Source of the DNA: Pseudomonadota bacterium
Lineage (GTDB): Bacteria > Pseudomonadota > Alphaproteobacteria > Dongiales > Dongiaceae
NCBI GenBank assembly: GCA_016183985.1
Contig: JACPDN010000009.1
Span: 1 to 64,000, forward strand
Reading direction: 5' to 3'
DNA: 64,000 bases
The notes under the pieces are model-generated. The model did not search any database, was not told where the DNA came from, and was given only the letters and a program-made list of their open reading frames with translations. A program made the translations under genes and the position numbers. Each line of letters starts with the position of its first letter. Within the stretch, counting starts at the first letter, position 1. Positions 34,726-61,832 of the stretch are shown piece after piece.

Positions 34726-34924
34726 GGGTATGGAAAATGCGCCCGCCTTCAGCCCCTTCAAGGACAGTTTGGACTCCTCCCGATCGTACGGGACCGGACA
34801 GGTGCGGCAGATGGCGAAACTCGCTAGAACGGCCATGAGAGCTGAAACAGGAGTGGCCGCGCAGACCATGATCCCCAGCGACGCCAAACAGGAAGCGACC
34901 GGCACCGGCAACGAGGCGGCGCGC

Positions 34925-46531: not shown

Positions 46532-47005
46532 ATGGCGGTCGGTTGGGACTACGCGGATTTATCGAGCGCGACATCGGCGGCAATCGCTGACGCGCACGCC
46601 TACTGGAACGTCAAACGCGCCAACCGGGAAATGCCCGACGCAGATGAAATCGATCCGCTAGAGATGCGTAGCTACCTCGGCAAGATCCTGCTCATCGACC
46701 TGCAAGATGGCGATCGCTTTCTCTTTCGCCTCTGTGGCACCGAGGTACGGGATCTGAATGGTGCAGAGCTCACCGGCAAATATGCCGACGCCGTCACTCT
46801 CGGGGACTCACAAGAGGCCTTCATCGAATCTTATCGACGGGCCATCACCAGCCGCCGGCCCGTCTTCTTTCGCGGCAAAATGTGGTGGCAGGACCGCGGC
46901 TACGCTACTTTTGAGCAGGTCAACTTGCCGTTGTCGGAAAATGAATCTGCAGCACGTAGGCTTCTGTGCGTCATCGACGCGAAGCTGCAGTCGCCGGCGC
47001 GCTAG
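46532..47005 (+). CDS. PAS-domain protein (PAS_5 type)
   Basis: A 157-residue cytosolic protein made of a single PAS-like domain of the PAS_5 group, common in Rhodospirillales: YWNVKRANREMPDADEIDP at the start, then LRSYLGKI-like (MRSYLGKILLIDL), FRLCGTEVRDLNGAELTG and FEQVNLPLS. It has no attached output domain, so it may act as a stand-alone sensor or a binding partner. It is convergent with the methyltransferase-like gene (stops 20 bases apart). Ligand and role unknown. Confidence 0.78.
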   Translation: MAVGWDYADLSSATSAAIADAHAYWNVKRANREMPDADEIDPLEMRSYLGKILLIDLQDGDRFLFRLCGTEVRDLNGAELTGKYADAVTLGDSQEAFIESYRRAITSRRPVFFRGKMWWQDRGYATFEQVNLPLSENESAARRLLCVIDAKLQSPAR

Positions 47006-47024: not shown

Positions 47025-47687
47025 TTAGAAACGAGGGGTCAAAACATAAGCATAATGCAAAAGATCCGGTCGCCTTACAGCCGCCAAGGTCTGCGCCGAC
47101 ACCGCAAATCCGGCACCCTCTGCACGTGAAACAAAGTCCGGCGCCTCGAAGGCCGACCACAGCAGAATGACGCCATGGGGCGACAGTTTCGCGGCAAAGG
47201 CCCGTAAACCTTCCGCCGAATACAACGCCGCATTCCCCGGCGAGACCAGGGCCTCGGGACCATTATCAACGTCCAGGACAATGACGTCGAAAGGTCCGAA
47301 ATCGTCATGGCGCATCAGGGCGCCGATGTCACCGGGAAGGATTGAAAGGCCGTCTGGCCGTCGTGGCAGTACCGTTGCAGCGACGTAGCGATCGAACCAA
47401 GCGATGACCTGCGGCGACAATTCGGCGACGGTGATGTGCCCGCTCCCGCCAAGAGCGTCGGATACAGCCGCCAGCGTATACCCCAAACCCAATCCGCCAA
47501 TGAGGATGTGCGGCGACGCGGTCTTTGCCACCTCAACCGCCATTCGCCCCAACGCCAGTTCCGACTGATGGCCGAGCCCATTCATCAGTTCGTAGCCATT
47601 AGCACGGATCATATAAATCTCTCCCTGCCGATAGAGCGTCAACTCACCGTCAGGAACCGAGGCTGTTTCGACGAGATCCCACGCCAT
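47025..47687 (-). CDS. Spermidine synthase-like SAM-binding protein at the end of the ape operon
   Basis: A 220-residue protein with the Rossmann fold of spermidine synthases and related methyltransferases: ILIGGLGLGYTLAAVSDAL (motif I), ITVAELSPQVIAWF (motif II acid) and DVIVLDVDNGPEAL. The family's usual N-terminal beta domain is short (first 55 residues). It starts 4 bases after the apeR stop, so it is probably read with the ape operon. Aryl polyenes are often methylated on the aryl head, and classical clusters carry a separate methyltransferase, so a tailoring role is possible; a polyamine-type or unrelated role is equally open. Confidence 0.65.
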   Translation of the reverse strand: MAWDLVETASVPDGELTLYRQGEIYMIRANGYELMNGLGHQSELALGRMAVEVAKTASPHILIGGLGLGYTLAAVSDALGGSGHITVAELSPQVIAWFDRYVAATVLPRRPDGLSILPGDIGALMRHDDFGPFDVIVLDVDNGPEALVSPGNAALYSAEGLRAFAAKLSPHGVILLWSAFEAPDFVSRAEGAGFAVSAQTLAAVRRPDLLHYAYVLTPRF

Positions 47688-47691
47688 AAAT

Positions 47692-48915
47692 CTACACGCG
47701 CTTGAAGATCAGCGAGGTGTTTATGCCGCCGAAGGCAAAGTTATTGGACATGAGATGGCCGATGTCCAAATTGCGAGGCTCTTTCATAACATAGTCAAGT
47801 TCGGCGCAGCGCGGGTCGATATTGTCGAGATTGATAGTCGGCGCGAACCACTGATCTCGCATCATTTCGATGCCAAGCCATGCTTCCATCGCGCCGCACG
47901 CACCAAGGCTGTGGCCGAAATAGGATTTCAGCGAATGTATCGGCGCCGCGCGCCCCAAAGCTGCACGGGTCGCCTCGGTCTCGGCGATATCGCCCCATTC
48001 TGTCGCCGTTCCGTGCCCGCTGACGAAGCCGATCTCGCTTGCCGGCAAGCCGGCATCTGTCAGCGCCTCGATCAAAGCGATTTGCATTGTCGGCGCGTAC
48101 GGCTGCGTCACGTGATTGCCATCCGAATTGCAGGCAAATCCCACGATCTCCGCATGGATCTTGGCGCCGCGCGCCAAGGCACGGTCGCGCTCTTCCAGCA
48201 GGAGCGTCACGGCGCCTTCGCCGATGACCAACCCGTCACGGTCGCGGTCATAGGGTCGCGGGGTCGTTTCGGGCCGATCGTTACGCGTGCTGGTCGCATA
48301 GAGTGTATCGAAGACAGCGGATTCCGTGACGTCGAGTTCATCCGCGCCACCCGCCACCATGACATCGGCCTTGCCCCAACGGATCGCCTCATAGGCATAT
48401 CCAATGCCCTGGCTGCCTGACGTGCAAGCGCTGGATGTTGGTATGACACGGCCGGTGATCCCGAAGAAGAGGCCAATATTGACGGCCGCCGTGTGGCTCA
48501 TCATTTGGATGTAGCTCGTCGCATTGAGCGTCTTCGACTGTCCATCCTTCATCAACTCTGCAAAGGCCATGACGGGCGTCGGGCTGCCGAAGGAAGAACC
48601 ATAGGCGATGCCCGTCCGTCCGGAAGTAACAATCGGGTCGCCAAGCAAGCCAGCATCATCGAGCGCCATTTCCGTCGCCCGCACCGCCATCCTGGCAACC
48701 GGCCCCATGGTCCGGATTTTCTTCCGCGGATAGACATCATCGACCGAGAACCCCGTCACGGGTGCTGCCAGCCGAGTATTGATGCCGACAAAGCGGTCCC
48801 ATTCAGGTAAACGACGGATGGCCGTTTCACCACGTACCATATGCCCGTGAATCTCCGGCCAATTGTTGCCGAGGGCGGTAATGCCGCCCATTCCCGTGAC
48901 CACAACGCGACGCAT
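47692..48915 (-). CDS. apeR: Aryl polyene beta-ketoacyl-ACP synthase
   Basis: A 407-residue FabF-type ketosynthase with a complete catalytic triad: Cys164 in SSACTSGSQG, His301 in SGHGTATEW and His335 in YFGHSLGACG. It would condense malonyl-ACP units during polyene building. It is the last synthase gene of the APE operon, in the position of ApeR in Enterobacteriaceae clusters. The ATG at 48915 shares one base with the apeQ stop (TGATG). Upstream in-frame extension runs inside apeQ and is rejected. The ape names here follow gene order and domain content, not a search. Confidence 0.85.
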   Translation of the reverse strand: MRRVVVTGMGGITALGNNWPEIHGHMVRGETAIRRLPEWDRFVGINTRLAAPVTGFSVDDVYPRKKIRTMGPVARMAVRATEMALDDAGLLGDPIVTSGRTGIAYGSSFGSPTPVMAFAELMKDGQSKTLNATSYIQMMSHTAAVNIGLFFGITGRVIPTSSACTSGSQGIGYAYEAIRWGKADVMVAGGADELDVTESAVFDTLYATSTRNDRPETTPRPYDRDRDGLVIGEGAVTLLLEERDRALARGAKIHAEIVGFACNSDGNHVTQPYAPTMQIALIEALTDAGLPASEIGFVSGHGTATEWGDIAETEATRAALGRAAPIHSLKSYFGHSLGACGAMEAWLGIEMMRDQWFAPTINLDNIDPRCAELDYVMKEPRNLDIGHLMSNNFAFGGINTSLIFKRV

Positions 48916-49631
48916 CAAACCATGCCCCCGTTTACCGAGAGCACCTGCCGCGTCACATAGGCAGCACCTTCCGAGCAAAGATAGGAGACGGCTGCAGCAA
49001 CCTCCGACGGTTGGCCCACACGCCGCATCGGCACCATTTTGAGAACCTCTTCCATGGGCAGATTCTCGATCATTTGAGTCTCGATGATCCCGGGGGCCAC
49101 GCAATTCACCGTGATGTTGCGCTTCGCGAGTTCGATCGCGAGCGCCTTGGTGGCACCGATAACACCGGCTTTGGCTGCGCTGTAATTCACCTGCCCGCGA
49201 TTGCCGGCAATGCCCGACACCGAAGCAATGGTCACAATGCGCCCGCCCAGCCTTGCGCTCACCATCGGCATGACGGCCGGCCTGACGACATTGTAGAAAC
49301 CCCCTAGATCGGTCTCCAGCACATCGTCCCATTCTTCGTCGGTCATGGCTGGAAAGGCTGCATCCCGCGCAATGCCGGCATTCAGGACCAAACCCCAATA
49401 GGCACCGTTCTCGGCGATGTCGGCTTCCAGAACGGCACGCGCCTGTTCGCGGTCTTTTAGATCGAAAGTCAGCACGCGGCCACGGCCGCCTATCGCCGCG
49501 AGTGTCGCCTCGGCACCAGCCCGATCCCGACCGTAATGCAGGGCCATCGTGAACCCGTCAGCGCTCAGCTTTTCGGCAATCGCCCGACCGATGCCCTTAC
49601 TGGCGCCGGTCACCAGAATTGTCTTCGTCAT
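48915..49631 (-). CDS. apeQ: Aryl polyene 3-ketoacyl-ACP reductase
   Basis: A 238-residue FabG-type short-chain reductase that uses NADPH to reduce the 3-keto group after each condensation. The cofactor motif GASKGIGRA is at residues 9-17, NAG follows, and the active-site Ser, Tyr and Lys are in SVSG and NYSAAKAG. It overlaps apeP by 4 bases and apeR by one base, so the three are tightly coupled. In a stand-alone setting it would be taken for FabG; the cluster makes it ApeQ. Confidence 0.88.
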   Translation of the reverse strand: MTKTILVTGASKGIGRAIAEKLSADGFTMALHYGRDRAGAEATLAAIGGRGRVLTFDLKDREQARAVLEADIAENGAYWGLVLNAGIARDAAFPAMTDEEWDDVLETDLGGFYNVVRPAVMPMVSARLGGRIVTIASVSGIAGNRGQVNYSAAKAGVIGATKALAIELAKRNITVNCVAPGIIETQMIENLPMEEVLKMVPMRRVGQPSEVAAAVSYLCSEGAAYVTRQVLSVNGGMV

Positions 49632-50107
49632 CCAATACCCAACTTCGTCACATCAACGCCTTGGCTGATCAGAACCGCAGCAAGATCGGCCGGCTGATGC
49701 AATGTCAGCTGTGCCCGCGCCTGCGGCTTCGCGTCGTGCAAAGTACAATCGAACACACCCGTTTCGCCATCCCGGAAAACGAGCTCGGCACGGACGACCA
49801 ATCGTTCCCCTTCCCGAAACCAGGGCCGTTCGGCCTTGAAATTCCGGCTGCCCAGCAGAAAGCCGATGCGCACCGGCTTGCCTTGCATGCGTGCCTCCAG
49901 GCCAACAAACGCCCCGCAGGCCTGTGCCATCCACTCTATGGCGATATGCGCTGCTATGCCTTGCCCGGCCTCAAAAAACGGGCTGCGGCGATCGACGCGG
50001 AAATCTGCCTCGATCATCGTATCTGTAAAGCCCCGGACACGATCAAGCAGCACCATCCGCCCGGCATGGGGTAGCAGGTCGGCAATTGGATACGGGCAAC
50101 TTTCCAT
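49628..50107 (-). CDS. apeP: Aryl polyene dehydratase (hotdog fold)
   Basis: A 159-residue hotdog protein of the FabA/FabZ-like group. It starts MESCPYPIADLLPHAGRMVLL; the histidine in LLPHAGRM is in the place of the FabZ catalytic histidine. It would remove water from 3-hydroxyacyl-ACP to give the double bonds of the polyene, probably with the second dehydratase domain in the ligase fusion (56830-58521). The ATG at 50107 shares one base with the apeO stop; a TTG two codons upstream is less likely. Confidence 0.75.
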   Translation of the reverse strand: MESCPYPIADLLPHAGRMVLLDRVRGFTDTMIEADFRVDRRSPFFEAGQGIAAHIAIEWMAQACGAFVGLEARMQGKPVRIGFLLGSRNFKAERPWFREGERLVVRAELVFRDGETGVFDCTLHDAKPQARAQLTLHQPADLAAVLISQGVDVTKLGIG

Positions 50108-51276
50108 CACCAATCTCCCTGCCCCAGGATCAGCGCCATATTGCTGCCGCCAAAGGCAAAGGAATTGCTCAGCATGGCCTGCCGTGAACCCATATCAAGG
50201 CACATACCGGTTTTCACAAAATTGAGCGCCGGAATAGCAGGATCTGGCGCGTTGTCCCATAAATGCGGCGGTAGACGCCCCGCACCATGCTCAGGGTGGA
50301 GAGCCAGGTAAAGAAATGCCGCCTCGCAAGCGCCTGCAGCGCCCAACATATGCCCGGTCATTCCTTTGGTCGAACTGCAGGGTGTTTCATTGCCGAAAAC
50401 GCCATGTACGGCAATGGCTTCCATCGCGTCATTGAGCTGCGTCCCGGTACCGTGGAGGTTGACATAACCGATGTCGGCCGGATCTAGCCTCGCATCCCCA
50501 AGTGCTGCGGCCATCGCCTCGGCGGCACCGGCGCCATTCGGTTCCGGGGCGCTCAGATGATAGGCATCAGAGCTTTCGCCAAACCCGAGCACGGCCACTT
50601 CGGATGCTTCCGGTGTCAACAGAAACACCGCCGCACCCTCCCCGATATTGATGCCATCGCGATTGCGGCTGAACGGCTGGCAGAGGCCTCGCGACACGGC
50701 ATCGAGCGACGCAAACCCATTGACGGTCGTTGCGCACAGGGTATCGGCGCCGCCAACAACCGCGGCATCGCACAGCCCGGCCGCCATCAATCGCCTGGCG
50801 CTCGCAAAAACCTTGGCACTCGAAGAACAGGCGGTGGCAATTGTGTAGCTAGGACCAGTCAAGCCAAGATGGGCCGCAGCTCCCTCTGCAAGACATCCCA
50901 GTTCCTGCTGCCGATAGTGATAGCGGCTGGGCCATGCGCCCTGGTTCTTCTTCGCCGCAAAGGCCGCCTCGCCCTCCGCGATCCCCGAGGTGCTGGTACC
51001 GAGAATGACCGCGATCCGATCGGCACCATAGCGCGCTTTCGCCTGCGCTACCTGATCGCCGACTTGCTCAAGGACAAGCCGGATCAAACCATCATTGCGC
51101 GTCAACGCGGTAGGAAGCACGGCATCGATGCGTCCAACCCGAACGCGACGATCCGGATAAGCGATCATCTCATGCGCAAGGCCCGCCCGCGTGCCGGCAA
51201 ATAAGGCATCCGCTACCGCCGCCTTGCCGACACCGATGGGTGTCGCCAACCCCATGGCCGCAATGCCAAGCCTCAC
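50107..51276 (-). CDS. apeO: Aryl polyene ketosynthase (KS-alpha type)
   Basis: A 389-residue ketosynthase with Cys150 (ATACSSSAK), His275 (NLHGTGTQLND) and His309 (TGHMLGAAG), so it is catalytically complete. In the APE system ApeO pairs with the chain-length factor ApeC, which is encoded first in this operon. It has a GTG start at 51276 that overlaps the apeN stop (GTGA). It lies 9.1 kb from its presumed partner apeC (60395-61147), but all intervening genes are on the same transcript. Confidence 0.85.
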   Translation of the reverse strand: MRLGIAAMGLATPIGVGKAAVADALFAGTRAGLAHEMIAYPDRRVRVGRIDAVLPTALTRNDGLIRLVLEQVGDQVAQAKARYGADRIAVILGTSTSGIAEGEAAFAAKKNQGAWPSRYHYRQQELGCLAEGAAAHLGLTGPSYTIATACSSSAKVFASARRLMAAGLCDAAVVGGADTLCATTVNGFASLDAVSRGLCQPFSRNRDGINIGEGAAVFLLTPEASEVAVLGFGESSDAYHLSAPEPNGAGAAEAMAAALGDARLDPADIGYVNLHGTGTQLNDAMEAIAVHGVFGNETPCSSTKGMTGHMLGAAGACEAAFLYLALHPEHGAGRLPPHLWDNAPDPAIPALNFVKTGMCLDMGSRQAMLSNSFAFGGSNMALILGQGDW

Positions 51277-51836
51277 GGTGCCACCTCCACCGTTTGCACG
51301 TCGATGGTGTATCCCCAGGCGCTATTCCGATAAGTCATGCGCCCATCGCCCAGATTGTCGATAAGCAGCACCTCATCGGAACCGACACTGACGACGCGGG
51401 TCCGGCCGACTTCCAGCAATGTCCCGCCGGACGGCTTCAAAGCATGGCGAACAATATCGCGCGGCCAATAGAGCAGGACGATGTCGGCCAGCATCGGTCC
51501 CGGTTTGACCTGTGGCGGCAGCCAATCGGCGCGGGTCGCCGTGACGGCCCCGGATTTGTCCCACGTGATGGTCATGGCTCGCCGGCCAAGACCATCGAGA
51601 CCAACAAGCTGAAACCGATCGGGCGTCACGCTGATCCGGGCTTCGTAGGCAAAGACATCGGCGCCGTGATGTACGGTGACCTGCTGCAGCCACTCAACAC
51701 TATGTCCAAGATCGCCAGGCAACGGCAATGCCAGAACACGCCCTGGAGCGAACATCGGCTTGTTGTCGGGTTGATCTGTCGATACCCCGGCACAGGCAGC
51801 GAGCAGGAGAGCTGCAATAAGGCGCCAAGCCTTCAT
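51273..51836 (-). CDS. apeN: DUF3261 lipoprotein of the ape operon
   Basis: A 187-residue lipoprotein: signal MKAWRLIAALLLAAC with lipobox LLAAC (Cys15). The body is mainly beta, with VTVHHGADVFAYEARISV and LLYWPRDIVRHAL, resembling DUF3261, a family found in APE and related clusters. It is probably anchored in the outer membrane and helps deliver or insert the aryl polyene lipid. The ATG at 51836 overlaps the exporter stop (ATGA); a much longer in-frame extension lies inside the exporter gene and is rejected. Confidence 0.75.
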   Translation of the reverse strand: MKAWRLIAALLLAACAGVSTDQPDNKPMFAPGRVLALPLPGDLGHSVEWLQQVTVHHGADVFAYEARISVTPDRFQLVGLDGLGRRAMTITWDKSGAVTATRADWLPPQVKPGPMLADIVLLYWPRDIVRHALKPSGGTLLEVGRTRVVSVGSDEVLLIDNLGDGRMTYRNSAWGYTIDVQTVEVAP

Positions 51837-54139
51837 ACCGACCCCCGCGACCGCGGATTGACGCCACCTGCGAGCGGCGCAAGAAGGAAGGCAATGAGGA
51901 TGCCAAGGAGCATCGTCAGCCCAAAGGCATGCACGGCAAAAACGCTGCTGAATGCCAGGACGCCGAACGAAAGCAGTGTCGTCACCATATCCAACAATAC
52001 CGCAAGCATCGTTACCGGGCGGCGCGCATAATCCGATTCCGCACAGAACGTCGCATAGTCGACGCCCATCGCAAGAACAAGAATAAGGCCCATGACATGG
52101 AAAAAGCTGATGGCTTCCCCACCCAGAGCAATGAGAGCGGGCGTTAGCAGCAAAGCCGCCATCGACGGCAACAGTACGGTCAGTCCGCCTTTGAAACCAT
52201 ATCGCCATGCCAGCGGCAGGATCATGAGCAAGGCCGAAAATCCGATAAGCCACATGGCGCGATGACGGTAAGTACCGAGCCGTTCGCTGAAGTCGCCGGC
52301 CGGATCCAGGAAGTGGACCCCTGGCCGGCCTGCCAAGGCGGCCCGGACGGCAGCCACATCCCTGATCCCGTCCAACGCAATCACCTGCCGGCCAACCCCA
52401 AGCACCCATTCCTTCAGAAATGGCAACGCGCCGTCATCCAATGCTTGCTGTAGGGTCAGCGGCGTCGGGGTAGGCTTGACCGGTACGGAAAGCCCGAGCG
52501 CCTCGGCCTGCCCCGTCCAATCGAGCCGTTCGATCAACGCCTTGTTCTCGGCTTGTCGTTTCAAAGACGGCACAAAATCCGCTGGCCCGCGATGTGCCGC
52601 AAGGGCGTTTTGCGCCTGCAATTCATCCAGCGTTCTCCCGACGTCTTCGCCCAGTTGCAACGCCGCCTCATCGTCAGCGGCCTCTACGGTGACAAACTGA
52701 ATGGCGCCACCGGTTCCGGTGAGTTCCTGCAAGTCCGCCTGCTCGGCTAAAAGCGTTGGATCGAGGGACTGCATACGTCGCACATCGTCGCTGGTGCCGA
52801 GTTGCAGTACCCCGACAGCACCAAGCCCTATCAGAATGAGCAGAACCATGCGGCAGAGCCGGCGCAGACGAGGATCTTCCCAGATACGCCAAAAGACATT
52901 GGCAAGGCCCAGCAGATGCCGCCCATAGCCGGGCGCCTCGCCGCGATCAAGAAATGGGAACCAGAAGACCACCGTAAAAAACGAGACGCTGAGCCCCACG
53001 ATCGAGAAAACGGCGACCTGCCGAAGCGCTGGAAACGGCGCCCACAGCAGGATCAAATAGCCGATCAGGGTCGTCACAAGACCCAAGCTGATGCCGGGTA
53101 ATACCTCATGGAGCCGCTGCCACGTGGTCGGCCGCGATGGATCGAAGACAGTTGCCGAGTAATGTATCCCATAGTCGACGGCGACACCGGTCAGTCCGAC
53201 GCCAAACAGCAAGGTGGCGATGTGGATTTCGCCAAACAGCGCCAGATTGGCCGCAAGCCCGGCGCCGATCCCGATTATCACCGCCATCACATTCATGAGC
53301 AATGGCCCGACACGGCGGAAAGCGCCTATGAGGAGCAGCATCGTGCCCACGGTGGCAATGGCGCCCAGTGTCGATGTCTCTCGCAACCCCGATTGCGATC
53401 CCTTTGCGGCGAAGAAGATCGCGCCGCCACGTTTTATGGCGAGGTCTGGCGCCTTCCCCGCTTCACGGCCGACGACATCCGCAATGAGGTCTGTGAACTT
53501 GTCTTGCGTATCGAGTGCATAGGGATCTCCGGCAATATTGCCCGTGATCATGATCCATGTCTTATCGTCGCTCTTCACCGACAGGTATCCATCATCCAGT
53601 GCCAGCCTTGAAAGCGGCGCCGGAAGCGACGTCAGGAATGCAGGAAACAACAAGAAAGGATCACGCTTCAGAAGGTGCGCATCCGCAAAGCCACCGACAC
53701 CATAGATCTGGGCTAGCGCGCGCTGAGCAATCGCCTGCCCTCCTCCGGCCGACAACGCCTCACGATCCGCCGGTGCCAGTAGCGCTCCAAGATGCGGCAG
53801 ATAAAATGCCCCCATCGCCTTTACCTGATCCGGACCGATCTGTTGGAGGCTCACAAGCCCGGAAGACGCCAGGCTCTTCTCGATTTCAGCAGCCGCCGAT
53901 CTGGCCGCCTCCCGGCTGGAATGGCCGATGAGCAGGACAAAGCGCCGGCTGCTGTTTTCAATCAGCTGGCCCGCCAAGGCATTTGCGTCTTGTCTATCTT
54001 TCTCCGCCGGCAAGAGGGACAGGAGATCCGTTCGAAACGCTATGCCGGACCACGCATTGACGCCAAGGTAACCGGCCGTCGCAACGACCAGCAGTAACCA
54101 GAAAATGGCAAGTGGGCGAGCAGTGCGGGGCCGTGTCAT
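51833..54139 (-). CDS. apeM: MMPL/RND exporter of the ape operon
   Basis: A 768-residue inner-membrane transporter with two halves, each with a membrane helix, a large periplasmic domain and five to six helices. The first bundle contains GVAVDYGIHYSAT and the second AMGVDYATFCAESDY, whose aspartates are the expected proton-path residues. It is related to HpnN elsewhere in the window but clearly separate. It should move the aryl polyene lipid or its precursor across the inner membrane. Both ends overlap neighbours by 4 bases. Confidence 0.85.
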   Translation of the reverse strand: MTRPRTARPLAIFWLLLVVATAGYLGVNAWSGIAFRTDLLSLLPAEKDRQDANALAGQLIENSSRRFVLLIGHSSREAARSAAAEIEKSLASSGLVSLQQIGPDQVKAMGAFYLPHLGALLAPADREALSAGGGQAIAQRALAQIYGVGGFADAHLLKRDPFLLFPAFLTSLPAPLSRLALDDGYLSVKSDDKTWIMITGNIAGDPYALDTQDKFTDLIADVVGREAGKAPDLAIKRGGAIFFAAKGSQSGLRETSTLGAIATVGTMLLLIGAFRRVGPLLMNVMAVIIGIGAGLAANLALFGEIHIATLLFGVGLTGVAVDYGIHYSATVFDPSRPTTWQRLHEVLPGISLGLVTTLIGYLILLWAPFPALRQVAVFSIVGLSVSFFTVVFWFPFLDRGEAPGYGRHLLGLANVFWRIWEDPRLRRLCRMVLLILIGLGAVGVLQLGTSDDVRRMQSLDPTLLAEQADLQELTGTGGAIQFVTVEAADDEAALQLGEDVGRTLDELQAQNALAAHRGPADFVPSLKRQAENKALIERLDWTGQAEALGLSVPVKPTPTPLTLQQALDDGALPFLKEWVLGVGRQVIALDGIRDVAAVRAALAGRPGVHFLDPAGDFSERLGTYRHRAMWLIGFSALLMILPLAWRYGFKGGLTVLLPSMAALLLTPALIALGGEAISFFHVMGLILVLAMGVDYATFCAESDYARRPVTMLAVLLDMVTTLLSFGVLAFSSVFAVHAFGLTMLLGILIAFLLAPLAGGVNPRSRGSV

Positions 54140-54753
54140 GGCTTGCCGGCAATATCAAGCAGGGCCTTCTCGTCTCCCGTCAGCGCGCCAGCCTCGCGCT
54201 TCTGATCGGTGAAAGTCAAACGATCGAGATCTCCTCCCTGCTTTTCGATCTCAACTTGGTCCACGAAGCCACCACCTGACACACGAATTTCGCTGACAGG
54301 CATCGTTGCCGTGGGCCCGCCAGCCCGCGCCTTCAGGCGCAAATGCCATTTGCCACCGTCTTCGGATCGTTCGACGGTGAAGTCCTTATCCAGCCCCGAC
54401 CAGTCGCCAGCCAAAGCCGCGGTCAGCATGTCATACAATCCGGTCATGATCGGAGCGCGGGTCGCCGGCACATTCAGCGTCGTCGCACCGTTGCTCTGCT
54501 GGGCAAGCCCCTTTTCCGTCATCAGCGTCGTGACGATGAAGGGCTTCTCCGTCCGCCAGATGAGTCCCTTGTCCGGTGCCAACACAAAGCTTCCTTCGCT
54601 TCGCAAGGGTCCGTCAAAGCCCTGCAATAGACGCTCCTGCATGAACCTGCCGCGGAGGATCTCGCCTTGAGCGAGTGTCTGAGGCTCCTCTCCAACAGCC
54701 GGCCCCGACGCAAGCAGCGCCAGGAAGGCCAGAATGATCAGTTTTCCGCGCAC
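54136..54753 (-). CDS. apeL: LolA-like outer-membrane carrier of the ape operon
   Basis: A 205-residue periplasmic protein of the LolA/LolB fold: signal peptide (about 1-22, ending AVGEE), then FMQERLLQGFDGPLRSEGSF, the hook-like beta segments GLIWRTEKPF and a C-terminal DLDRLTFTD. LolA-like proteins carry lipids or lipoproteins through the periplasm; here the cargo is probably the aryl polyene lipid. The start is taken as a GTG at 54753 (VRGKLIILAF) with GAGG upstream, overlapping the thioesterase gene by 16 bases; a longer start is possible but spoils the signal peptide. Confidence 0.78.
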   Translation of the reverse strand: MRGKLIILAFLALLASGPAVGEEPQTLAQGEILRGRFMQERLLQGFDGPLRSEGSFVLAPDKGLIWRTEKPFIVTTLMTEKGLAQQSNGATTLNVPATRAPIMTGLYDMLTAALAGDWSGLDKDFTVERSEDGGKWHLRLKARAGGPTATMPVSEIRVSGGGFVDQVEIEKQGGDLDRLTFTDQKREAGALTGDEKALLDIAGKP

Positions 54754-55157
54754 AGCGCCCGCCTCACATTTTCCAGCAGGATAACCGGCGATTCCAGGCA
54801 CAGCTCCTGCGTTGCCGAACTGACCGCGACCTGGATCGTATGCGCCTTCGTCAGCACCTCACCGGTTTGGGTGTCACGGCAGCGGTAGTCGATCTTGAGG
54901 CGGTTTTCATATTCGATCAGCGTCGCCTGCACGGTAACCCGCTGCCGGTAGCGCACCGGCCGCACATATTTGACTCGCATATCGACGATCGGCCACAGAT
55001 ATCCCGATGCCGCCATCTGCGGGTAATTGTAGTCGATCTTATCCAGCAGCAGTCCGCGCACCTGCTCGAAATAGCGTATATAATTGCCATGCCACACGAC
55101 CTGCATCGGGTCGACATCGTAGAATTGCGCGACGATTTCGCATTCTGCGCTGATCAT
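54738..55157 (-). CDS. apeK: Acyl-CoA/ACP thioesterase of the ape operon
   Basis: A 139-residue hotdog thioesterase of the 4-hydroxybenzoyl-CoA type. The catalytic aspartate is in FYDVDPMQVVWHGNY, the family signature, and the rest of the fold (VRPVRYRQRVTVQATL, LTKAHTIQVAV) is complete. In the APE system it may release or edit polyene chains or stalled intermediates. Its ATG overlaps the glycosyl/acyltransferase stop by 4 bases. Confidence 0.85.
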   Translation of the reverse strand: MISAECEIVAQFYDVDPMQVVWHGNYIRYFEQVRGLLLDKIDYNYPQMAASGYLWPIVDMRVKYVRPVRYRQRVTVQATLIEYENRLKIDYRCRDTQTGEVLTKAHTIQVAVSSATQELCLESPVILLENVRRALCAEN

Positions 55158-56833
55158 GGGCGCGGTTCCTTGGGCGTGGGATTCCAGAAGTCGAAGAAGT
55201 TATACCACTGCAGCGGCTCGGCGATCGCATATCGCTCCAGTCGCGCGGCAAACGACGCCGCATAGCTGTCGAGCGCCGCGTCACGGGCCTGCCGCGGCAG
55301 GACGATCCGATCCGCGAGCTTCTCGACGTCAAGCACGTGATGATCGCCCTGGCGCAGGCAAAACAACGTGTAGACCGGACAGTCCAGCAGTGCTGCCAGT
55401 ATGTACGGTCCCTGCGAAAAGGGCGCCGGACGCCCCAGAAACGGAATGGTACTGACCCGGTCGCTGTTGACGGGTATCCGGTCGCCGGCGATGACCACCC
55501 ACGCGCCCTGCTCCACCCGCGACTTCAGCTCCATCGCAGCAGCCGGTCCGAGATCCGTCACCTGCCAGGTATTGAGCGCCGCTTCCGGCCGATAACTCTT
55601 AAGCAGCCGGTTATAGTTCTCCGCATGCTTTGTGTGCACCAGCACAAGCAAACGCCGGCGCGTCTCCTCATCCAGCAGTGCCCGCGCCAGATCCACATTG
55701 CCAATATGCGCGACGATAAAGAGCGCACCATAGGGCGACCGCTCCGCTTCGATCAAATCGTTGACCTGTCCCGGCTGCACCGCATCGGCGGCCATTCGGC
55801 CTGTCCAACCGATGAACGTATCTACCGCGCGGGCGGCAAAGGACATGAAGTGGCGAAAGCCCGTTCCGAAGGATTGGGGTACCCGAACATTGGCGCCATG
55901 GGACGCAGCTTGGCGCAAGAACGCTGCGGAGGCTCGCCGTTGCTCTCGCCCGGTCAAATAGAAATAGAGAACGATGGGGGCAAGGACGACGAGGCAACCT
56001 CTCCGGCCGAGCAATCTTGCTGCCACGCCCGAAAACCTCAGCCCCGCATAGGCACCACGCTCGGCTATCCACGCCCAATGTCGCGACGTCGCACGCTGCC
56101 TCGAAAGCAGCTGCGGCAAGCGCCTGAGCATGCCGAAAAAGAGCCGCGCATGCATTCGACTGATACGGACATTGTCACGCCACAGGTCGAAATTGGATGT
56201 ATTCCCCTCTGGATAGGTAACCGCCACGGGTTGCTCGACGACCTCTACACCGCGCCAGAAAAGGCGCACGATGATCTCGGTATCGAAATCCATGCGCCGC
56301 CCGATATGCTCGCCATCCGCCCAGAGCGCTGCCACGGCGGCCAGCGGATAGACCCGCAAACCGCACATGCTGTCGCTGATGGCCAAGGACAGCGTCTCGA
56401 TCCAGACCCATATATGCGTTGCATAGCGGCCAATCGCCCGCCCGAGCGGAACCGACCGATCATAGACCGGAACGCCTGTCACCAACGCCTGCGGCTTTCC
56501 ACGCGACAGCTCCAACAGCCGACCTATGGCACCCAGATCGTGCTGCCCGTCAGCGTCGATCTGCAGGACGTGCGTAAAGCCGGCAGCCATGGCCAGCTGA
56601 AATCCATGCAGAACGGCGCCACCCTTCCCTTGATTGGGATCGAGCCGAACCGCGTGGATTGCGTGATCCACGTCTTCCAGCGCCGCCAATCTCTCAGCAT
56701 GCACAGCATCACTGCCGTCATCGACAATGAAAACGGCCAAGTTATGCGCCCGCAGGCGATCAACAATCTCGGGCACCGCGCCGCTGTGATTGTGGCTGGG
56801 GATCAAGGCGCAGGGGCGCCATGCCATATTCAT
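55154..56833 (-). CDS. apeJ: Glycosyltransferase-acyltransferase fusion of the ape operon
   Basis: A 559-residue two-domain protein. The N-terminal part (about 1-240) is a GT2-type glycosyltransferase with FIVDDGSD and IDADGQHD (the DXD metal site). The C-terminal part (about 285-550) resembles LpxL/HtrB acyltransferases, with AHIGNVDLAR where the HX4D-like site is expected and AGDRIPVN. Together they could add a sugar and an acyl chain to make the polyene lipid anchor. It starts directly after the ligase fusion (ATGA overlap). Confidence 0.82.
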   Translation of the reverse strand: MNMAWRPCALIPSHNHSGAVPEIVDRLRAHNLAVFIVDDGSDAVHAERLAALEDVDHAIHAVRLDPNQGKGGAVLHGFQLAMAAGFTHVLQIDADGQHDLGAIGRLLELSRGKPQALVTGVPVYDRSVPLGRAIGRYATHIWVWIETLSLAISDSMCGLRVYPLAAVAALWADGEHIGRRMDFDTEIIVRLFWRGVEVVEQPVAVTYPEGNTSNFDLWRDNVRISRMHARLFFGMLRRLPQLLSRQRATSRHWAWIAERGAYAGLRFSGVAARLLGRRGCLVVLAPIVLYFYLTGREQRRASAAFLRQAASHGANVRVPQSFGTGFRHFMSFAARAVDTFIGWTGRMAADAVQPGQVNDLIEAERSPYGALFIVAHIGNVDLARALLDEETRRRLLVLVHTKHAENYNRLLKSYRPEAALNTWQVTDLGPAAAMELKSRVEQGAWVVIAGDRIPVNSDRVSTIPFLGRPAPFSQGPYILAALLDCPVYTLFCLRQGDHHVLDVEKLADRIVLPRQARDAALDSYAASFAARLERYAIAEPLQWYNFFDFWNPTPKEPRP

Positions 56834-58521
56834 GTCGGCGCCAGGCGAATGACACCCGAGGTCAGCACGACATCGGCACGACGATAAGAGAAGTTGAGGC
56901 GCTGCCTGTCCCTGTCATGTGTGAGGGCAAGCGTGACGGTCGTTTCCGGCAGCGTGAGGCGATGGAACTTGACCTGATAGTCTTGTGCGCTTTCCAGCGG
57001 CAAATCGAGATGGCGCGCCGCGAATTTGACGACCCAGTCGATCTGCGCCACACCCGGAACAATCGGCATGTTCGGAAAGTGACCGTCGAGTTGCAGCAGC
57101 TCCGGCGCGTTGAAAAGGTCCAGCTCCAACGCATCGCCGTTGCGGCGCATGGCCAATAGGTCGGGTTCGGTCTTTCCCTGATTGAAAAGGCTACGCAGTG
57201 CCGCCTGCCTGATCTTTCCCAACGGACCCACCGGCAGCTCCTCGACAAACCGCCAACGGCGGGGCATCGCCGCTGCCTCATGCCGCGATGCCAGGCACTG
57301 ACGGAGGAGCCTCCCGAAACGAAACGCGCCAAGCCGCGCAAGTTCTGCAGAACCCGCAACGCTTGGCACGACAACGGCCGCCAGCACCAATTCGTCATCC
57401 CCCAGTGCTATGAGAGCGACCGCCGCGATCAGCGGCGATCCTGCCAGCGCCGCCTCGATCTCGGGCAGGCTCACGCGCTTTCCCTCGATCTTGACGATGC
57501 GGTCAGCCCGCCCGATCAATCGAAAGCCGCCCGGCACCTGCTCGGCCCGATCTTCCGTTCTGACCCATGCGTCGCCAGACGCAAAAGGCGAGCGCAACAG
57601 CAAGGCGCCGTCGGCGCCAATATCCAGCACGACGCCAGGCGCCGCTGACCAGGGCTCATTGGCCTCGCTCCGCCAGCGCCAACCGATCATCCCGGTTTCG
57701 GTACTGCCGTAGATTTCACATAAGGGCGCGTGAAATGCTTTTTGCGCTGTCGCCGCGCTGTCGTCGCCAAGCTCGGCCCCTGCGGAAAGCAAGCAGGAGG
57801 GCGGCACGTGGTTGGTGGCCAATTCCAGATCGCCAAGGCGTTTCAAATGCGCCGGGCTTACCACCACCGCTGCATGGCCGAGATCCTCGGCCAGCAGCTC
57901 TTCCCAGAATTCGTGCACCGCAGCTTCAAACGGCCTGCCTGTACAAAGCGGCCAAAAGAGCTTGAAGCTGAGGCCGAAGAGATGCTGATGCGTGACGGTT
58001 CCGACAATACGGCCATCTTTGGGAACGCTCGCCCCCAGAACCTGCTCGATCGCGACGGCTTCCCGCTGCATGAGAGCCAGGGTTTTATCGACGCGCTTTG
58101 GCTCCCCCGTGGAGCCCGAGGTAAAGAGCGAAAGCCGGCATGCCTTCGCATCGACGGCCTTCAATTCCATCGGACGGCCGACGCCCGCGCCAAGCTCGAA
58201 AACACTGGTCGCAGCATCCGCCGGCTGATCGGTCACGATCAAATCCCACTCGGCCTGGATAGCGTTGCTGGCGCCCGTCGTCGTGTTCTGTGGCAAGATG
58301 ACGTCGGCGCCGATCTGGAACAGCGCCAGCATGGCGACGGCGCACCAATAGGTATCCTCGGTAATCACCAAGCCGCGCCGGCAATTCAACGCTGCCAGAC
58401 GTGCCGCGTTATGCGCAACATCATGCCGGAGTTGTGAACGCAACAAAGGCTGGCCGCGACGGTAGGCGACAATGCTGCTCTCGTCGCCACTGCCGATGAG
58501 CAAATCCGACAGATCATGCAT
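56830..58521 (-). CDS. apeHI: Fused AMP-ligase and dehydratase (ApeH-ApeI)
   Basis: A 563-residue fusion. Residues about 1-440 are an AMP-forming acyl/aryl ligase: SLFTSGSTGEPKRV (phosphate loop), YGSTETGMIGWR and the C-terminal lid KIEGKRVSL. It probably activates the aryl starter acid (4-hydroxybenzoate type) for loading onto an ACP. Residues about 445-563 form a FabZ-like hotdog domain with LDGHFPNMPIVPGVAQIDW, whose histidine is the expected catalytic residue. I recall these as separate genes apeH and apeI in enterobacterial clusters. It overlaps apeG by 8 bases. Confidence 0.8.
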   Translation of the reverse strand: MHDLSDLLIGSGDESSIVAYRRGQPLLRSQLRHDVAHNAARLAALNCRRGLVITEDTYWCAVAMLALFQIGADVILPQNTTTGASNAIQAEWDLIVTDQPADAATSVFELGAGVGRPMELKAVDAKACRLSLFTSGSTGEPKRVDKTLALMQREAVAIEQVLGASVPKDGRIVGTVTHQHLFGLSFKLFWPLCTGRPFEAAVHEFWEELLAEDLGHAAVVVSPAHLKRLGDLELATNHVPPSCLLSAGAELGDDSAATAQKAFHAPLCEIYGSTETGMIGWRWRSEANEPWSAAPGVVLDIGADGALLLRSPFASGDAWVRTEDRAEQVPGGFRLIGRADRIVKIEGKRVSLPEIEAALAGSPLIAAVALIALGDDELVLAAVVVPSVAGSAELARLGAFRFGRLLRQCLASRHEAAAMPRRWRFVEELPVGPLGKIRQAALRSLFNQGKTEPDLLAMRRNGDALELDLFNAPELLQLDGHFPNMPIVPGVAQIDWVVKFAARHLDLPLESAQDYQVKFHRLTLPETTVTLALTHDRDRQRLNFSYRRADVVLTSGVIRLAPT

Positions 58522-59122
58522 CCCGGCCTCGCTGGCGGTTACCCGCCAATAACCGGTCGCGGATGAGCATTTCACCGAGGAAGAGAACGCCACTGCAGAC
58601 ATAGGAAACGAGCCCGGTCCAAAGCAGCCAAAGCTCGATGCTGTGCAGCGCGGACAACAGCGTGGCAATCGCCGCGTTGGTCACCAACCAAACTGTCCAG
58701 ATCCATGTCAGGCGGCGGCAATAATCCTGGCCTGCCGACGAAAGATCTGGATCGCGCACCCGCGCCATTCGTTCGACGAGGCTCGGCGGATGCCTTAGTG
58801 TGCTGCCGAACAATGCTGCGAACATCAGGCTGATGAGTGCCGGATAGATTCTCGACGCCAAAGTGGCATCGACGATTGACAGCATGCCCAATGCCGCGAC
58901 CGCTGCCAGCAGCGGTACGCGCAACAGGCGCATGAAGCCGCTTGAGGAAAAGTAAGCGCGCGCAAACAACAGCAAGCAAGCGCCAATGGCAAAGACCGAA
59001 GGCGAAACGCGCTCATGCAGCGCATATACCAGAAATGGATAGGCCGCCCCGATCACCACGGCGACGGCGGTGCCTTTGCGGCCAGCTGCATTCTGACGGA
59101 ATCTATTCAGCAAGGACCGCAT
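58514..59122 (-). CDS. apeG: COG4648-type membrane protein of the ape operon
   Basis: A 202-residue membrane protein with about six hydrophobic helices (for example AVAVVIGAAYPFLVYALH, LLRVPLLAAVAALGML and the C-terminal LWLLWTGLVSYVCSG). It belongs to the COG4648-like proteins found next to the ligase gene in APE clusters; the function is not known. The ATG at 59122 overlaps the end of the second ACP gene by 20 bases. Confidence 0.72.
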   Translation of the reverse strand: MRSLLNRFRQNAAGRKGTAVAVVIGAAYPFLVYALHERVSPSVFAIGACLLLFARAYFSSSGFMRLLRVPLLAAVAALGMLSIVDATLASRIYPALISLMFAALFGSTLRHPPSLVERMARVRDPDLSSAGQDYCRRLTWIWTVWLVTNAAIATLLSALHSIELWLLWTGLVSYVCSGVLFLGEMLIRDRLLAGNRQRGRDA

Positions 59123-59351
59123 GCACGCGATCAATCACGTCGCCGACCGAGCGAACCGATTTGAATTCGTCGACCTTGAGCTTGCGCCCCGTCAATTCCT
59201 GCAATTTGACGACAAGGTCGACAGCATCGATTGAATCGAGATCGAGGTCTTCATATAGCCGCGCCTGCAAGGTGATCTTCTCGGCTGGAATCTCGAACAT
59301 GTCTTCGAGATAGCTGCGCAGCTTGCCCTCGATCTGCTCACGCGACAGCAT
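59103..59351 (-). CDS. apeF: Acyl carrier protein (second of the ape operon)
   Basis: An 82-residue acyl carrier protein. The phosphopantetheine attachment serine is Ser40 in DLDLDSIDAVDL. It would carry the starter or growing polyene chain. The ATG at 59351 overlaps the upstream ACP stop by 14 bases; a start 12 codons earlier would lengthen the protein without family support. It needs activation by a phosphopantetheinyl transferase, possibly the one encoded divergently at 61284. Confidence 0.88.
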   Translation of the reverse strand: MLSREQIEGKLRSYLEDMFEIPAEKITLQARLYEDLDLDSIDAVDLVVKLQELTGRKLKVDEFKSVRSVGDVIDRVHAVLAE

Positions 59352-59622
59352 TGGCTTCACTCCCGCCTTGGCCCTGGGCACGGACAAAGCTTGCCAGGCT
59401 GCGCACGTTCGCGAAGTGGGCCTTGATCTCGTCGGTGATGGTCTCGATTTTCAGGCCATAACGGCGACGCAAGGCAACGCCGAGTTCCAGCGCATCGATG
59501 GAATCGAGGCCAAGGCCGGTCCCGAACAGCATTTCTTCGCTATCGATGTCTTCCGGCTGCACGTCCTCGAGCTTCAGCGCGTCGATGATCAGGGCCTTAA
59601 TGTCGTGTTCGAGGTCGTCCAT
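59338..59622 (-). CDS. apeE: Acyl carrier protein (first of the ape operon)
   Basis: A 94-residue acyl carrier protein with the attachment serine at Ser41 in GLGLDSIDALEL and an acidic first helix (DLEHDIKALIIDAL). The pair with apeF is typical of APE clusters: one is thought to receive the starter and the other the extender chains. It starts 6 bases after the acyltransferase stop. Confidence 0.9.
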   Translation of the reverse strand: MDDLEHDIKALIIDALKLEDVQPEDIDSEEMLFGTGLGLDSIDALELGVALRRRYGLKIETITDEIKAHFANVRSLASFVRAQGQGGSEANAVA

Positions 59623-59628
59623 ACGCCG

Positions 59629-60402
59629 TTATCCAAGCCTCAGCTGTTCCGTGAAATAGCTCTGCAGGCGCCGTACCAAATGTCGCGCCGCCAATGAGCG
59701 GTATTGATAGCCAAGGGTATCCGCTGCGTCCAGACGATCCCCGACCAGAATGCGGAAATGGGAGCGGCTGGCCGGGATTTTCCACCAGGGATCCCCCTTG
59801 CTCAGCATGACCGGCCGGCAATCAATGGTGACCAGCTGGATTTGCGCTTCGGCCAACAAGGCGATATTGGCGAATCCGCGGCGGAATTGAAGGCTTTCCC
59901 CCGGCCGTGAGCGGGTTCCCTCGGGAAAAATGATCAGATCCTTGCCGTCCGCCATCGCCGTGCGGCAGGAATCCAGCAGCGCCTCGGGTTCCAGATCGTT
60001 CCGAATATAGCCCGCCCAGCGGACCACCCCGCCGAGATAGCGGTTGCGCCACAACTCAGCCTTCACGATGCATTGGGCGTGCCGGATCAGCGACATCAGG
60101 ATCACGACATCGAGCAATGTCGGATGATTGGCAATGATCAGCCGGCCGGAACTGCTCTGCAGCGCCTCGCGCCCATGGACTTCCAGTTTGATGATGCCGA
60201 GCCATTCCAGCATGCCGACGAAGAAACGGAAGGTCCAATGGATGATGGCCTGCGTCGCGCGCACACGCCGTACCGCATCCCGCTCAAGCAAGGCAATCAA
60301 TGGGAAAACACTGACAGCCAGCAGCAACCCACCGCCAAAGAATGTCGCGAAGGCAAACCCGGTCCCGGCCAAGCGCCAGATGTAGTTGACGCTGTTAAAC
60401 AC
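59629..60402 (-). CDS. apeD: 1-acylglycerol-3-phosphate acyltransferase-like protein of the ape operon
   Basis: A 257-residue membrane-associated acyltransferase of the PlsC family. The catalytic His93 and Asp98 are in ANHPTLLDVV and the substrate motif FPEGTRS follows near residue 160. One or two membrane helices lie near the N-terminus. It probably transfers an acyl group to the lipid anchor of the aryl polyene. It has a GTG start at 60402 overlapping the apeC stop by 8 bases. The exact ape letter is uncertain. Confidence 0.82.
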   Translation of the reverse strand: MFNSVNYIWRLAGTGFAFATFFGGGLLLAVSVFPLIALLERDAVRRVRATQAIIHWTFRFFVGMLEWLGIIKLEVHGREALQSSSGRLIIANHPTLLDVVILMSLIRHAQCIVKAELWRNRYLGGVVRWAGYIRNDLEPEALLDSCRTAMADGKDLIIFPEGTRSRPGESLQFRRGFANIALLAEAQIQLVTIDCRPVMLSKGDPWWKIPASRSHFRILVGDRLDAADTLGYQYRSLAARHLVRRLQSYFTEQLRLG

Positions 60403-61147
60403 GGTGCCACCGCCACATCATTCGCCCGCCCCGTACCGCGGCGGCGGGCGCGTTGCCCAGCAGAAAGCGCAGAAACGACAGCGGTATGCATTCTTGCCCT
60501 TCATCGCCATCGGCCATCGTCGCGGACACGCTCAGTCCGGCATCATCCGCAGCGACCAGGGTCATCGCGAGAACCAATGGAAGCTCTTCCTCGGCCATGG
60601 GGCGAAAGGGCGCGTAATCGTCCGGCAAAGGTGCATCGAAATAGAACAATAGAACCGGTTTGCCGGGCGCCTCTGCCAGGCAAGCGGTGGCCTCGATAAG
60701 GCCATAGCCAAAACTGTCCAATGAGCCGGCGACGGCGGTATGCCCAGCCTTGTTGCCGGTATGGATCGACAGGAGTCCCGCCAGCCCGTGATGAACCGAC
60801 ATGCTGAACTCCGCCGGCGACGGCTGCTCGCCTTTAGCAAGGGATGTCAGCACCAGCACCGTCCGATCAAATTCGCCATGCCGGGACGCGAGAATGTAGC
60901 GCGCATCCTTGGCACCGCTGCAGGCGAGCGCCGCACCCAGGGCCTTCTGCCCTATAGGTGTCGCGCGGCGACGCAGCATCATTGGCAAGGTCGGCGCTGG
61001 CGGATCGTCGGCCGCAGAATCAGGCTGCCCCGCCCAGGCGCGCCATGCGCTCTTGCTCTCGCGCCCGGGCGCCCAGGCAAACCAATCGCGCACCTGGAAC
61101 GGCAGGTCGCGGCGCACAGATTGACGAGGTAGTTCACGGTCGATCAT
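60395..61147 (-). CDS. apeC: Ketosynthase-like chain-length factor
   Basis: A 250-residue protein of the ketosynthase N-terminal type (Ketoacyl-synt_2 like). The stretch FSMSVHHGLAGLLSIHTGNK and AVAGSLDSFGYGLIEA follow the KS fold, but Ser-Leu stands where the catalytic cysteine would be, so it should be inactive as an enzyme. This is expected of a chain-length factor that pairs with ApeO. It is the first gene of the operon. The ATG at 61147 has no clear ribosome site; a TTG at 61156 is an alternative. Confidence 0.78.
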   Translation of the reverse strand: MIDRELPRQSVRRDLPFQVRDWFAWAPGRESKSAWRAWAGQPDSAADDPPAPTLPMMLRRRATPIGQKALGAALACSGAKDARYILASRHGEFDRTVLVLTSLAKGEQPSPAEFSMSVHHGLAGLLSIHTGNKAGHTAVAGSLDSFGYGLIEATACLAEAPGKPVLLFYFDAPLPDDYAPFRPMAEEELPLVLAMTLVAADDAGLSVSATMADGDEGQECIPLSFLRFLLGNAPAAAVRGGRMMWRWHRV

Positions 61148-61283
61148 GACTTGCAATAGATCCCACCGGGGCGGGAGAATTGGTTAACGACGCCGGATCA
61201 TTCAATGGTTGTTATATGGCCGTCCGGCACCAGACAAGAGCGATATCTTGAGGCCCCTGGTTTATTTCACCGTGATCGATGGC

Positions 61284-61832
61284 ATGGAGCGGCAGAAGCG
61301 GAGCTCTGCGGCAAAATCCGTTGTTATACAAATGGTTAGAATAATTCTCGGCCAGCCGAAGGCAAGTTTCGAAATTGCCGCCGAAGCGAGTGGCAAGCCT
61401 GTCGTGACGGGTCATCCGGAGATATTCATCTCCATCAGTCACAGCCAAGCGAGTCTCGCCTGCGCGGCAACCCAAATCGGCCCGATTGGGATCGACCTCG
61501 AGATTGCCAGGCCGCATCGGGATCTCGCCGGCATTGCCGCCTTTGCCTTCGGCCCGCGCGAGCAGATCCGCATCGCCCAAGAAGGCGCTGATGGATTCTA
61601 CCGCATCTGGACCTTGCGCGAGGCGATCGCCAAGGCAAATGGCATTGGCCTGATAGAGGCCGCCGATCGCCGGGACCGGGTGGAGTCCGGGCCGGTGACG
61701 GGCGATTGGCGCTGGCAGGATTGGCATCTCACCCACCGGATTCTCGCGCCCGGTCGGCACCTCGCGATTGCCGTGCATGCGCCCGCGGTCGAAATTATCG
61801 ACTGGCGCCGCGTCACGCCGAATGGCGCTTGA
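61284..61832 (+). CDS. Short 4'-phosphopantetheinyl transferase
   Basis: A 182-residue Sfp-type enzyme that turns apo-ACP into holo-ACP. The fold's second half is complete: FISISHSQASLA, GPIGIDLEIA with Asp71 and Glu73 (metal ligands), and WTLREAIAKANG with Glu113 and Lys117. The usual N-terminal subdomain of about 70-80 residues is largely missing; the protein begins near the RSSAAKSVVIQMVRIILG helix. The ATG at 61284 is assumed; a TTG at 61209 would add 25 residues without restoring that part. It is divergent from apeC and so probably activates the two ACPs. It overlaps betI by 20 bases. Confidence 0.78.
   Translation: MERQKRSSAAKSVVIQMVRIILGQPKASFEIAAEASGKPVVTGHPEIFISISHSQASLACAATQIGPIGIDLEIARPHRDLAGIAAFAFGPREQIRIAQEGADGFYRIWTLREAIAKANGIGLIEAADRRDRVESGPVTGDWRWQDWHLTHRILAPGRHLAIAVHAPAVEIIDWRRVTPNGA

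Follow-up and report, generated by a model that had tools for sequence, protein, structure and literature searches.

A complete aryl polyene lipid operon in a Dongia-type alphaproteobacterium without matches to UbiC, XanB2 or LpxC

The window analyzed here is a stretch of 64,000 nucleotides from contig JACPDN010000009.1 of assembly GCA_016183985.1, whose host is a Dongia-type alphaproteobacterium. Positions 47025–61147 of the minus strand carry an aryl polyene (APE) operon of 16 coding sequences, in the order apeC-D-E-F-G-HI(fused)-J-K-L-M-N-O-P-Q-R, ending in a gene for a protein with a spermidine-synthase fold, hereafter the tail gene. Gene sets of this type direct the synthesis of a yellow lipid pigment with antioxidant action. 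The original prediction had described 14 genes on one strand in apeC–apeR order; the strand and the order held, and the count was corrected to 16. The genes and the other features of the locus, in window coordinates, are as follows.

61209–61832, plus strand: 4'-phosphopantetheinyl transferase (PPTase), divergent from apeC; Pfam ACPS, E = 4.7e-10; NCBIfam HetI/AusB/AcpT-like matches all below cut-offs
60395–61147, minus strand: apeC, chain-length-factor partner of ApeO; Ketoacyl-synt_2, E = 1.3e-51; structure 6qsp_B, then 7f28_A
59629–60402, minus strand: apeD, lysophospholipid-type acyltransferase with HX4D; PF01553, E = 5.9e-20
59338–59622, minus strand: apeE, acyl carrier protein (ACP) 1; PF00550; NCBIfam PRK09184 above cut-off; DSI serine
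59103–59351, minus strand: apeF, ACP 2; PF00550; NCBIfam PRK05350 above cut-off
58514–59122, minus strand: apeG, membrane protein; no family match, named from position; 62% identity to congener G006
56830–58521, minus strand: apeH-apeI fusion, aryl-acid:ACP ligase and dehydratase; AMP-binding, E = 1.5e-14; ApeI-like, E = 1.1e-9; 3esi and 6qsr on the ApeI part
55154–56833, minus strand: apeJ, glycosyltransferase 2 and LpxL-like acyltransferase with HX4D; PF00535, PF03279
54738–55157, minus strand: apeK, thioesterase; 4HBT_2, E = 4e-13
54136–54753, minus strand: apeL, LolA-like carrier; LolA_3, E = 2.6e-7 (family scan from a longer start, 54801)
51833–54139, minus strand: apeM, RND/MMPL-type exporter; no Pfam match, weak HAE3/HpnN matches below cut-offs
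51273–51836, minus strand: apeN, DUF3261 LolB-like lipoprotein; DUF3261, E = 4.5e-25 (family scan from 51869)
50107–51276, minus strand: apeO, ketosynthase; 6qsp_A, E = 3.3e-94, then 7f28_B
49628–50107, minus strand: apeP, dehydratase; ApeP-like, E = 5.9e-16
48915–49631, minus strand: apeQ, ketoreductase; adh_short_C2, E = 1.3e-51
47692–48915, minus strand: apeR, second ketosynthase; 4ewg, E = 4e-161; 7f27, E = 9e-146; PRK09116 equivalog above cut-off
47025–47687, minus strand: tail gene, spermidine-synthase-fold enzyme of the S-adenosylmethionine type, substrate not assigned; four bases past apeR; no Pfam match
61211–61238, minus strand: candidate apeC promoter of housekeeping type, CTTGTC-N16-TATAAC; CTTGT and TATAAC unchanged across the window, G006 and G002

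The identification as an APE operon, made at first from the letters alone, is borne out by enzyme families, solved-structure matches and gene order, which all agree. Pfam and NCBIfam assigned the ketosynthases, the ketoreductase, the ApeP and ApeI dehydratases, the two ACPs, the adenylating ligase, an acyltransferase, the glycosyltransferase-acyltransferase, the thioesterase and the LolA-like and DUF3261 proteins. ApeO and the half-size ApeC (250 residues) make up the ketosynthase/chain-length-factor pair. Their best solved-structure matches were chains A and B of 6qsp, with 7f28 second; 7f27 and 7f28 are the Acinetobacter pair, 4ewg is an ApeR of Paraburkholderia, and 6qsr and 3esi are of the ApeI type. 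The 6qsp structure is the ApeO–ApeC pair of Xenorhabdus doucetiae (PMC8358021). ApeR, ApeQ, ApeP, ApeI, both ACPs and the ApeH ligase are all present, as are the genes for lipid attachment and export, D, G, J, K, L, M and N; Pfam identified D, J, K, L and N, whereas G and M are named solely from gene order and conservation. In E. coli, ApeA is a lipoprotein and ApeB the methyltransferase of the head group. None of the 16 genes matched an ApeA- or ApeB-type family in Pfam or NCBIfam; no search with the E. coli ApeA and ApeB sequences was made. The tail protein has a fold of the S-adenosylmethionine type, but of a different family.

When inspected by eye, the catalytic residues appeared intact: the cysteine and histidines of ApeO and ApeR, the DSI serines of both ACPs, the HX4D motifs of ApeD and ApeJ, and, in ApeH, the P-loop and the C-terminal lysine. 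All 15 ape genes appear to be under purifying selection relative to the congener G006 (dN/dS 0.02–0.22, with 0.29 for the PPTase), although these values are rough, dS being high (about 0.9–2.4) and saturated for the tail gene. The tight coupling proposed originally was also found, with 13 of the 15 junctions overlapping by 1–20 bases and the other two leaving 6 bases (D/E) and 4 bases (R/tail gene) between the genes. These figures use starts that we picked, those of apeL and apeN being shorter than the ones used in the family scan. The operon would be read as a single transcript. For the PPTase, the TTG at 61209 may be upstream of the true start.

To find where the unit ends, ApeC was searched for in 41 genomes: seven from the genus, ten more from the family and 24 from elsewhere in the class. 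ApeC relatives were found in 8 of the 41, including the window's own genome and two congeners, G006 and G002; a third congener, G003, has the operon interrupted by a contig end. All three carry the genes in the window's order at the corresponding site. On the downstream side, the tail gene is followed by dcd and murA in all three congeners. Upstream of the operon, G006 and G002 share the PPTase, betI and an OpuAC-type binding protein. In the APE-free congener G005, dcd and betI adjoin, about 650 bases apart, and the site has no match to the ape genes, the PPTase or the tail gene. Because all of these are absent from this empty site and shared in the congeners, the whole block from PPTase to tail gene is, by sequence comparison, an insertion/deletion unit between betI and dcd, spanning 47025–61832 (about 14.8 kb). 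The original limits were therefore too small, since G005 lacks the divergent PPTase as well as the operon. In the window, a PAS_5 domain gene on the plus strand (46532–47005) stands between the unit and dcd; the corresponding interval is only about 600 bases in G002 and about 1.9 kb in G006, the latter with no match to the PAS_5 gene.

A tree of eight concatenated Ape proteins from 16 taxa placed the Dongia block as sister to G012, a member of the same family, with support of 100. Several other nodes were weak (51–71, one 87), and G010 and G014, also of this family, fell outside the Dongia block; one taxon lacked ApeL, and the duplicate loci L052 and L057, the broken G003 and the divergent G030 were omitted. 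A recent transfer from Azospirillum had been considered, ApeC being 55–60% identical to three of the aligned Azospirillum loci versus 46–51% to G012 and G014, and was rejected on the strength of the grouping with G012.

The accessory genes were compared across 17 other clusters, from 8 genomes and 9 named loci, with L052 and L057 left out as duplicates. ApeM was matched in 16 of the 17, partially in G003 and not at all in G030. ApeJ had no match in L058 (A. doebereinerae), L059, L060 or L061 within the stretches examined. The PPTase was matched beside apeC in 9 of the 16 clusters in which this side was covered, belonging to several families (G006, G002, G012, G014, G010, G036, L053, L059 and L060), and had no match there in four Azospirillum loci, L061, L062 or the G030 stretch examined. 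Within the genus, it is present in all three APE-bearing genomes covered on that side, G003 being cut short. This PPTase would serve as the dedicated activator of both ACPs.

A small lipoprotein gene precedes apeC in six alphaproteobacterial clusters: G014 and G010, where it is doubled, three Azospirillum loci and G036 (L016 8292–8678; L019 138–524 and 573–959; L054 9585–9947; L055 9603–9935; L056 9585–9947; L020 12930–13286). By its position only, it is a possible ApeA candidate; it had no match in the window, G006, G002, G012, L053 or L058–L062. In Bosea-type clusters, an oxidoreductase-like gene stands shortly before apeC (L059 7756–9258, L060 7765–9285, L061 8356–9834), a call that rests on a dinucleotide-binding motif seen by eye.

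The tail protein had no Pfam match, and a search of solved structures was uninformative. NCBIfam gave nothing beyond a match, below threshold, to the spermidine-synthase portion of a fused transporter family. An AlphaFold model built with 10 relatives had a pLDDT of 88.6, and the best 50 fold matches listed were spermidine and spermine synthases and related aminopropyltransferases. True aminopropyltransferases have GGGDGG, with an aspartate, in the glycine-rich loop, which reads GGLGLG in the tail protein. Because this aspartate is missing, the modeled protein is as likely to be an S-adenosylmethionine-using enzyme with another substrate. The tail gene lies 3' of apeR in all four APE-bearing genomes of the genus. 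Relatives were found in 10 of the 41 genomes, six of them without ape genes in the neighborhood examined, and there was no match anywhere in the APE genomes G010, G012, G014, G030 and G036. A role as an APE-specific enzyme throughout the family was rejected on account of these six carriers, while within the genus the gene goes with the operon. It may stand in for ApeB.

The prediction that the aryl acid must come from elsewhere, there being no starter-acid gene in the cluster, was supported. UbiC and XanB2 are the bacterial 4-hydroxybenzoate enzymes listed in PMC8854274, and profile searches found no match to UbiC or to XanB2-type proteins anywhere in this genome. The unit contains no ammonia lyase either. 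XanB2 belongs to the FkbO/Hyg5-like domain family. A starter source does not by itself define a cluster, as UbiC lies outside the cluster in E. coli (PMC8253772). Three aromatic-lyase paralogues are encoded in the genome, all far from the operon. The Ala-Ser-Gly motif, which forms the MIO cofactor of aromatic lyases, is present in one that resembles histidine lyase. It was not seen by eye in the other two (L048 9709–11073, G000:C9:88208–89572; L049 8753–10054, G000:C13:127752–129053), which have matches of similar strength in several congeners. The upstream flanks examined contained no recurrent candidate for a starter gene; what recurred there was the PPTase, the small lipoprotein, the oxidoreductase-like gene of L059–L061 and flanks shared between sister genomes.

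The same absence extends through the class. UbiC (PF04345) was found in none of the 41 relatives and in 5 members of a class-wide sample of 387 genomes. At a threshold of E 1e-8 or better, and with up to 7 candidates scored per genome, at least 34 of the 387 have an ApeC match, and the five with UbiC are not among these 34. Together with G003, G012 and G014, the three tested in the 41-genome set, the 34 make up 37 APE-bearing genomes, with UbiC in 0 of 37. The XanB2-type domain occurred in three (within 11 kb of apeC in G030, some 4 kb away in G227 and on a separate contig in G147). An ammonia lyase lay 5–7 kb from apeC in eight, compared by hand within a limit of 8 kb (G036, G086, G159, G230, G242, G292, cut by the contig end, G370 and G398). 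The remaining 26 of the 37, this genome included, have neither a XanB2-type domain nor a cluster lyase. The weakest ApeC matches (E near 1e-13) are perhaps not true APE clusters, and all were kept. Because UbiC was found in only 5 of 387 genomes, the source of 4-hydroxybenzoate for ubiquinone looks open in most of the class. Hyphomicrobium denitrificans likewise has neither UbiC nor XanB2, and its 4-hydroxybenzoate source is described as unexplained (PMC12423496). The starter in Dongia probably comes from this unexplained alphaproteobacterial route; on the simplest view, ApeH would take up a metabolite of general use, probably the precursor of ubiquinone.

LpxC (PF03331) was missing from all seven genomes of the genus; of the genomes searched outside it, 4 of 10 from the family and 18 of 24 from the rest of the class had a match. 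ApeJ is the only match to the LpxL family (PF03279) in the window's genome. Going by these two lipid A enzymes, LpxC and the LpxL family, the genus probably lacks lipid A, as Sphingomonas does (PMC10964400), and lipid A is an unlikely anchor here. For E. coli, a glycolipid was put forward as the APE anchor, lipid A being one potential form, at a time when the Xenorhabdus structure was not yet available (PMC8253772), and ApeJ links the polyene to N-acetylglucosamine for some metabolites (PMC8776678). The N-acetylglucosamine link suits a genus that lacks LpxC yet keeps its attachment and export genes intact. The idea that APE replaces lipid A in the family was rejected: LpxC was missing from 5 of 7 APE-bearing and 8 of 10 APE-free members, showing no association, with G003 counted as bearing and G016 only 68% complete. 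A literature search returned nothing joining LpxC, sphingolipid, Alphaproteobacteria and lipid A, and nothing on Dongia together with aryl polyenes.

The RpoE–ChrR and hopanoid genes to which the operon had been linked are indeed nearby, as the window includes a sigma factor gene, a ChrR-like gene, HpnH, HpnN, an HpnA-like gene scoring just under its cut-off and squalene-hopene cyclase. The regulatory link was not upheld. The ChrR-like gene is named from its position after the sigma gene. Relatives of the sigma–ChrR pair also occur in the corresponding neighborhood of the APE-free G005. The RpoE–ChrR promoter consensus TGATCC-N16-CGTA (PMC5507510) occurs once in the window, at 34696, upstream of the sigma gene itself. 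A TGATCC also lies 53 bases ahead of apeC, but it lacks a CGTA at the proper spacing, and neither G006 nor G002 conserves it. With no consensus promoter before the operon, control of apeC by RpoE–ChrR was rejected. The CTTGTC-N16-TATAAC element, with its housekeeping-like spacing, is the better promoter candidate; it was not returned by the consensus promoter scan, and the promoter and terminator scan did no better than shuffled sequence. The sigma–ChrR pair is divergent from a cyclopropane fatty acid synthase gene (33350–36147).

Taken together, we consider it probable, at about 0.87, that this is a complete, functional-looking APE lipid operon of a Dongia-type alphaproteobacterium, drawing its starter from general metabolism and using an anchor other than lipid A. 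The gene content, order and conservation, the empty site and the missing matches to UbiC, XanB2-type proteins and LpxC are observed; the enzyme steps, the product, the identity of the starter and the anchor are inferred. In the proposed pathway, the PPTase would arm ApeE and ApeF, and ApeH would load the aryl acid, most likely 4-hydroxybenzoate, onto an ACP. ApeO–ApeC with ApeR would elongate it by malonyl units, each round comprising reduction by ApeQ and then dehydration by ApeI or ApeP. ApeK, ApeD and ApeJ would transfer the polyene acid to a glycolipid, which ApeL, ApeM and ApeN would take to the outer membrane. The starter acid would come from general metabolism by a route not recognized in the class, and the anchor would not be lipid A.

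Several points weigh against this reading. A divergent UbiC would escape the profile searches, in which the E. coli control and 5 of the 387 class members were matched; the XanB2-type search had no positive control genome, yet it detected the domain near the ApeC genes of G030 and G227; and the match of ApeH to aryl ligases is well below the cut-offs, so that 4-hydroxybenzoate is a putative starter. In a different, rather unlikely account, the polyene is made from another aryl acid, such as 4-aminobenzoate from folate synthesis or plant-derived coumarate from soil. The top NCBIfam ligase family for ApeH was 4-coumarate-CoA ligase, at 112 bits (cut-off 335), the genome has no UbiC, XanB2-type match or recognizable tyrosine lyase, and alphaproteobacterial UbiA is reported to take 4-aminobenzoate (PMC12423496). 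However, neither an uptake gene nor one for coumarate is in the unit, 4-hydroxybenzoate is the predicted starting compound in E. coli, and Xenorhabdus ApeH loads 4-hydroxybenzoate in vitro (PMC8253772).

FabF- and FabG-type families and ACPs predominate in the operon, as they might in a fatty-acid, resorcinol or ornithine-lipid-like pathway. Such an assignment is very improbable, since ApeC and ApeO find their top solved structures in the Xenorhabdus APE pair, there are ApeP-like and ApeI-like Pfam matches, the lipid-attachment and Lol-like set follows APE order, and the unit has no alkylresorcinol-type synthase. The tail gene and the PPTase might also be ordinary neighbors that flank the operon by chance, given the six tail-gene carriers with other contexts, the five APE genomes without a tail-gene match and the 7 of 16 other clusters in which the PPTase was unmatched beside apeC. 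This appears improbable in view of their joint absence from the G005 empty site, their presence in the APE-bearers of the genus (tail gene 4/4, PPTase 3/3) and the adjoining position of the PPTase in more than half of the clusters, across several families. A further extension is speculative, and we think it more likely wrong than right: the Dongia APE glycolipid would be an outer-leaflet glycolipid in its own right in lipid A-free cells, its starter supplied by an undescribed 4-hydroxybenzoate or 4-aminobenzoate route common with ubiquinone, and its head or anchor decorated by the tail enzyme in place of ApeB.

APE clusters were already known in alphaproteobacteria, and published for Acetobacteraceae (PMC8776678). 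As a member of its family the operon is unremarkable; more interesting is its setting, with a starter source missing class-wide and LpxC missing. Because UbiC had no match in any of the 37 APE genomes and 26 have neither XanB2-type domain nor cluster lyase, the colored APE product could serve to screen for the 4-hydroxybenzoate route that is unexplained in one alphaproteobacterium (PMC12423496). Lipid A has been weighed as the anchor in E. coli (PMC8253772); that ApeD, J, K, L, M and N are retained where LpxC is missing from the genus speaks against its being the anchor of APE in general.

Among known systems, xanthomonadin- and flexirubin-type APE clusters have related ketosynthases, but there XanB2 or an ammonia lyase supplies the starter, neither of which is in the Dongia operon. 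The clusters of X. doucetiae and E. coli CFT073 (ApeA–ApeR) have the same gene set and order from C to R (E. coli list in PMC8253772). In contrast to these, the Dongia operon has no apeA or apeB match, a fused H–I gene, a spermidine-synthase-like tail gene and no UbiC match in the genome; it also has its own divergent PPTase, while none is listed for the E. coli cluster (PMC8253772). The Acinetobacter baumannii APE system shares ApeO–ApeC and ApeR, but belongs to a different class and differs in starter and anchor context; its ApeH also appears to be fused to a dehydratase, as suggested by the wording ApeH-Nt and ApeH-ApeP (PMC8358021). The Azospirillum and Bosea clusters, compared over the upstream side and the core, are alphaproteobacterial and have the compact core in common with the Dongia operon.

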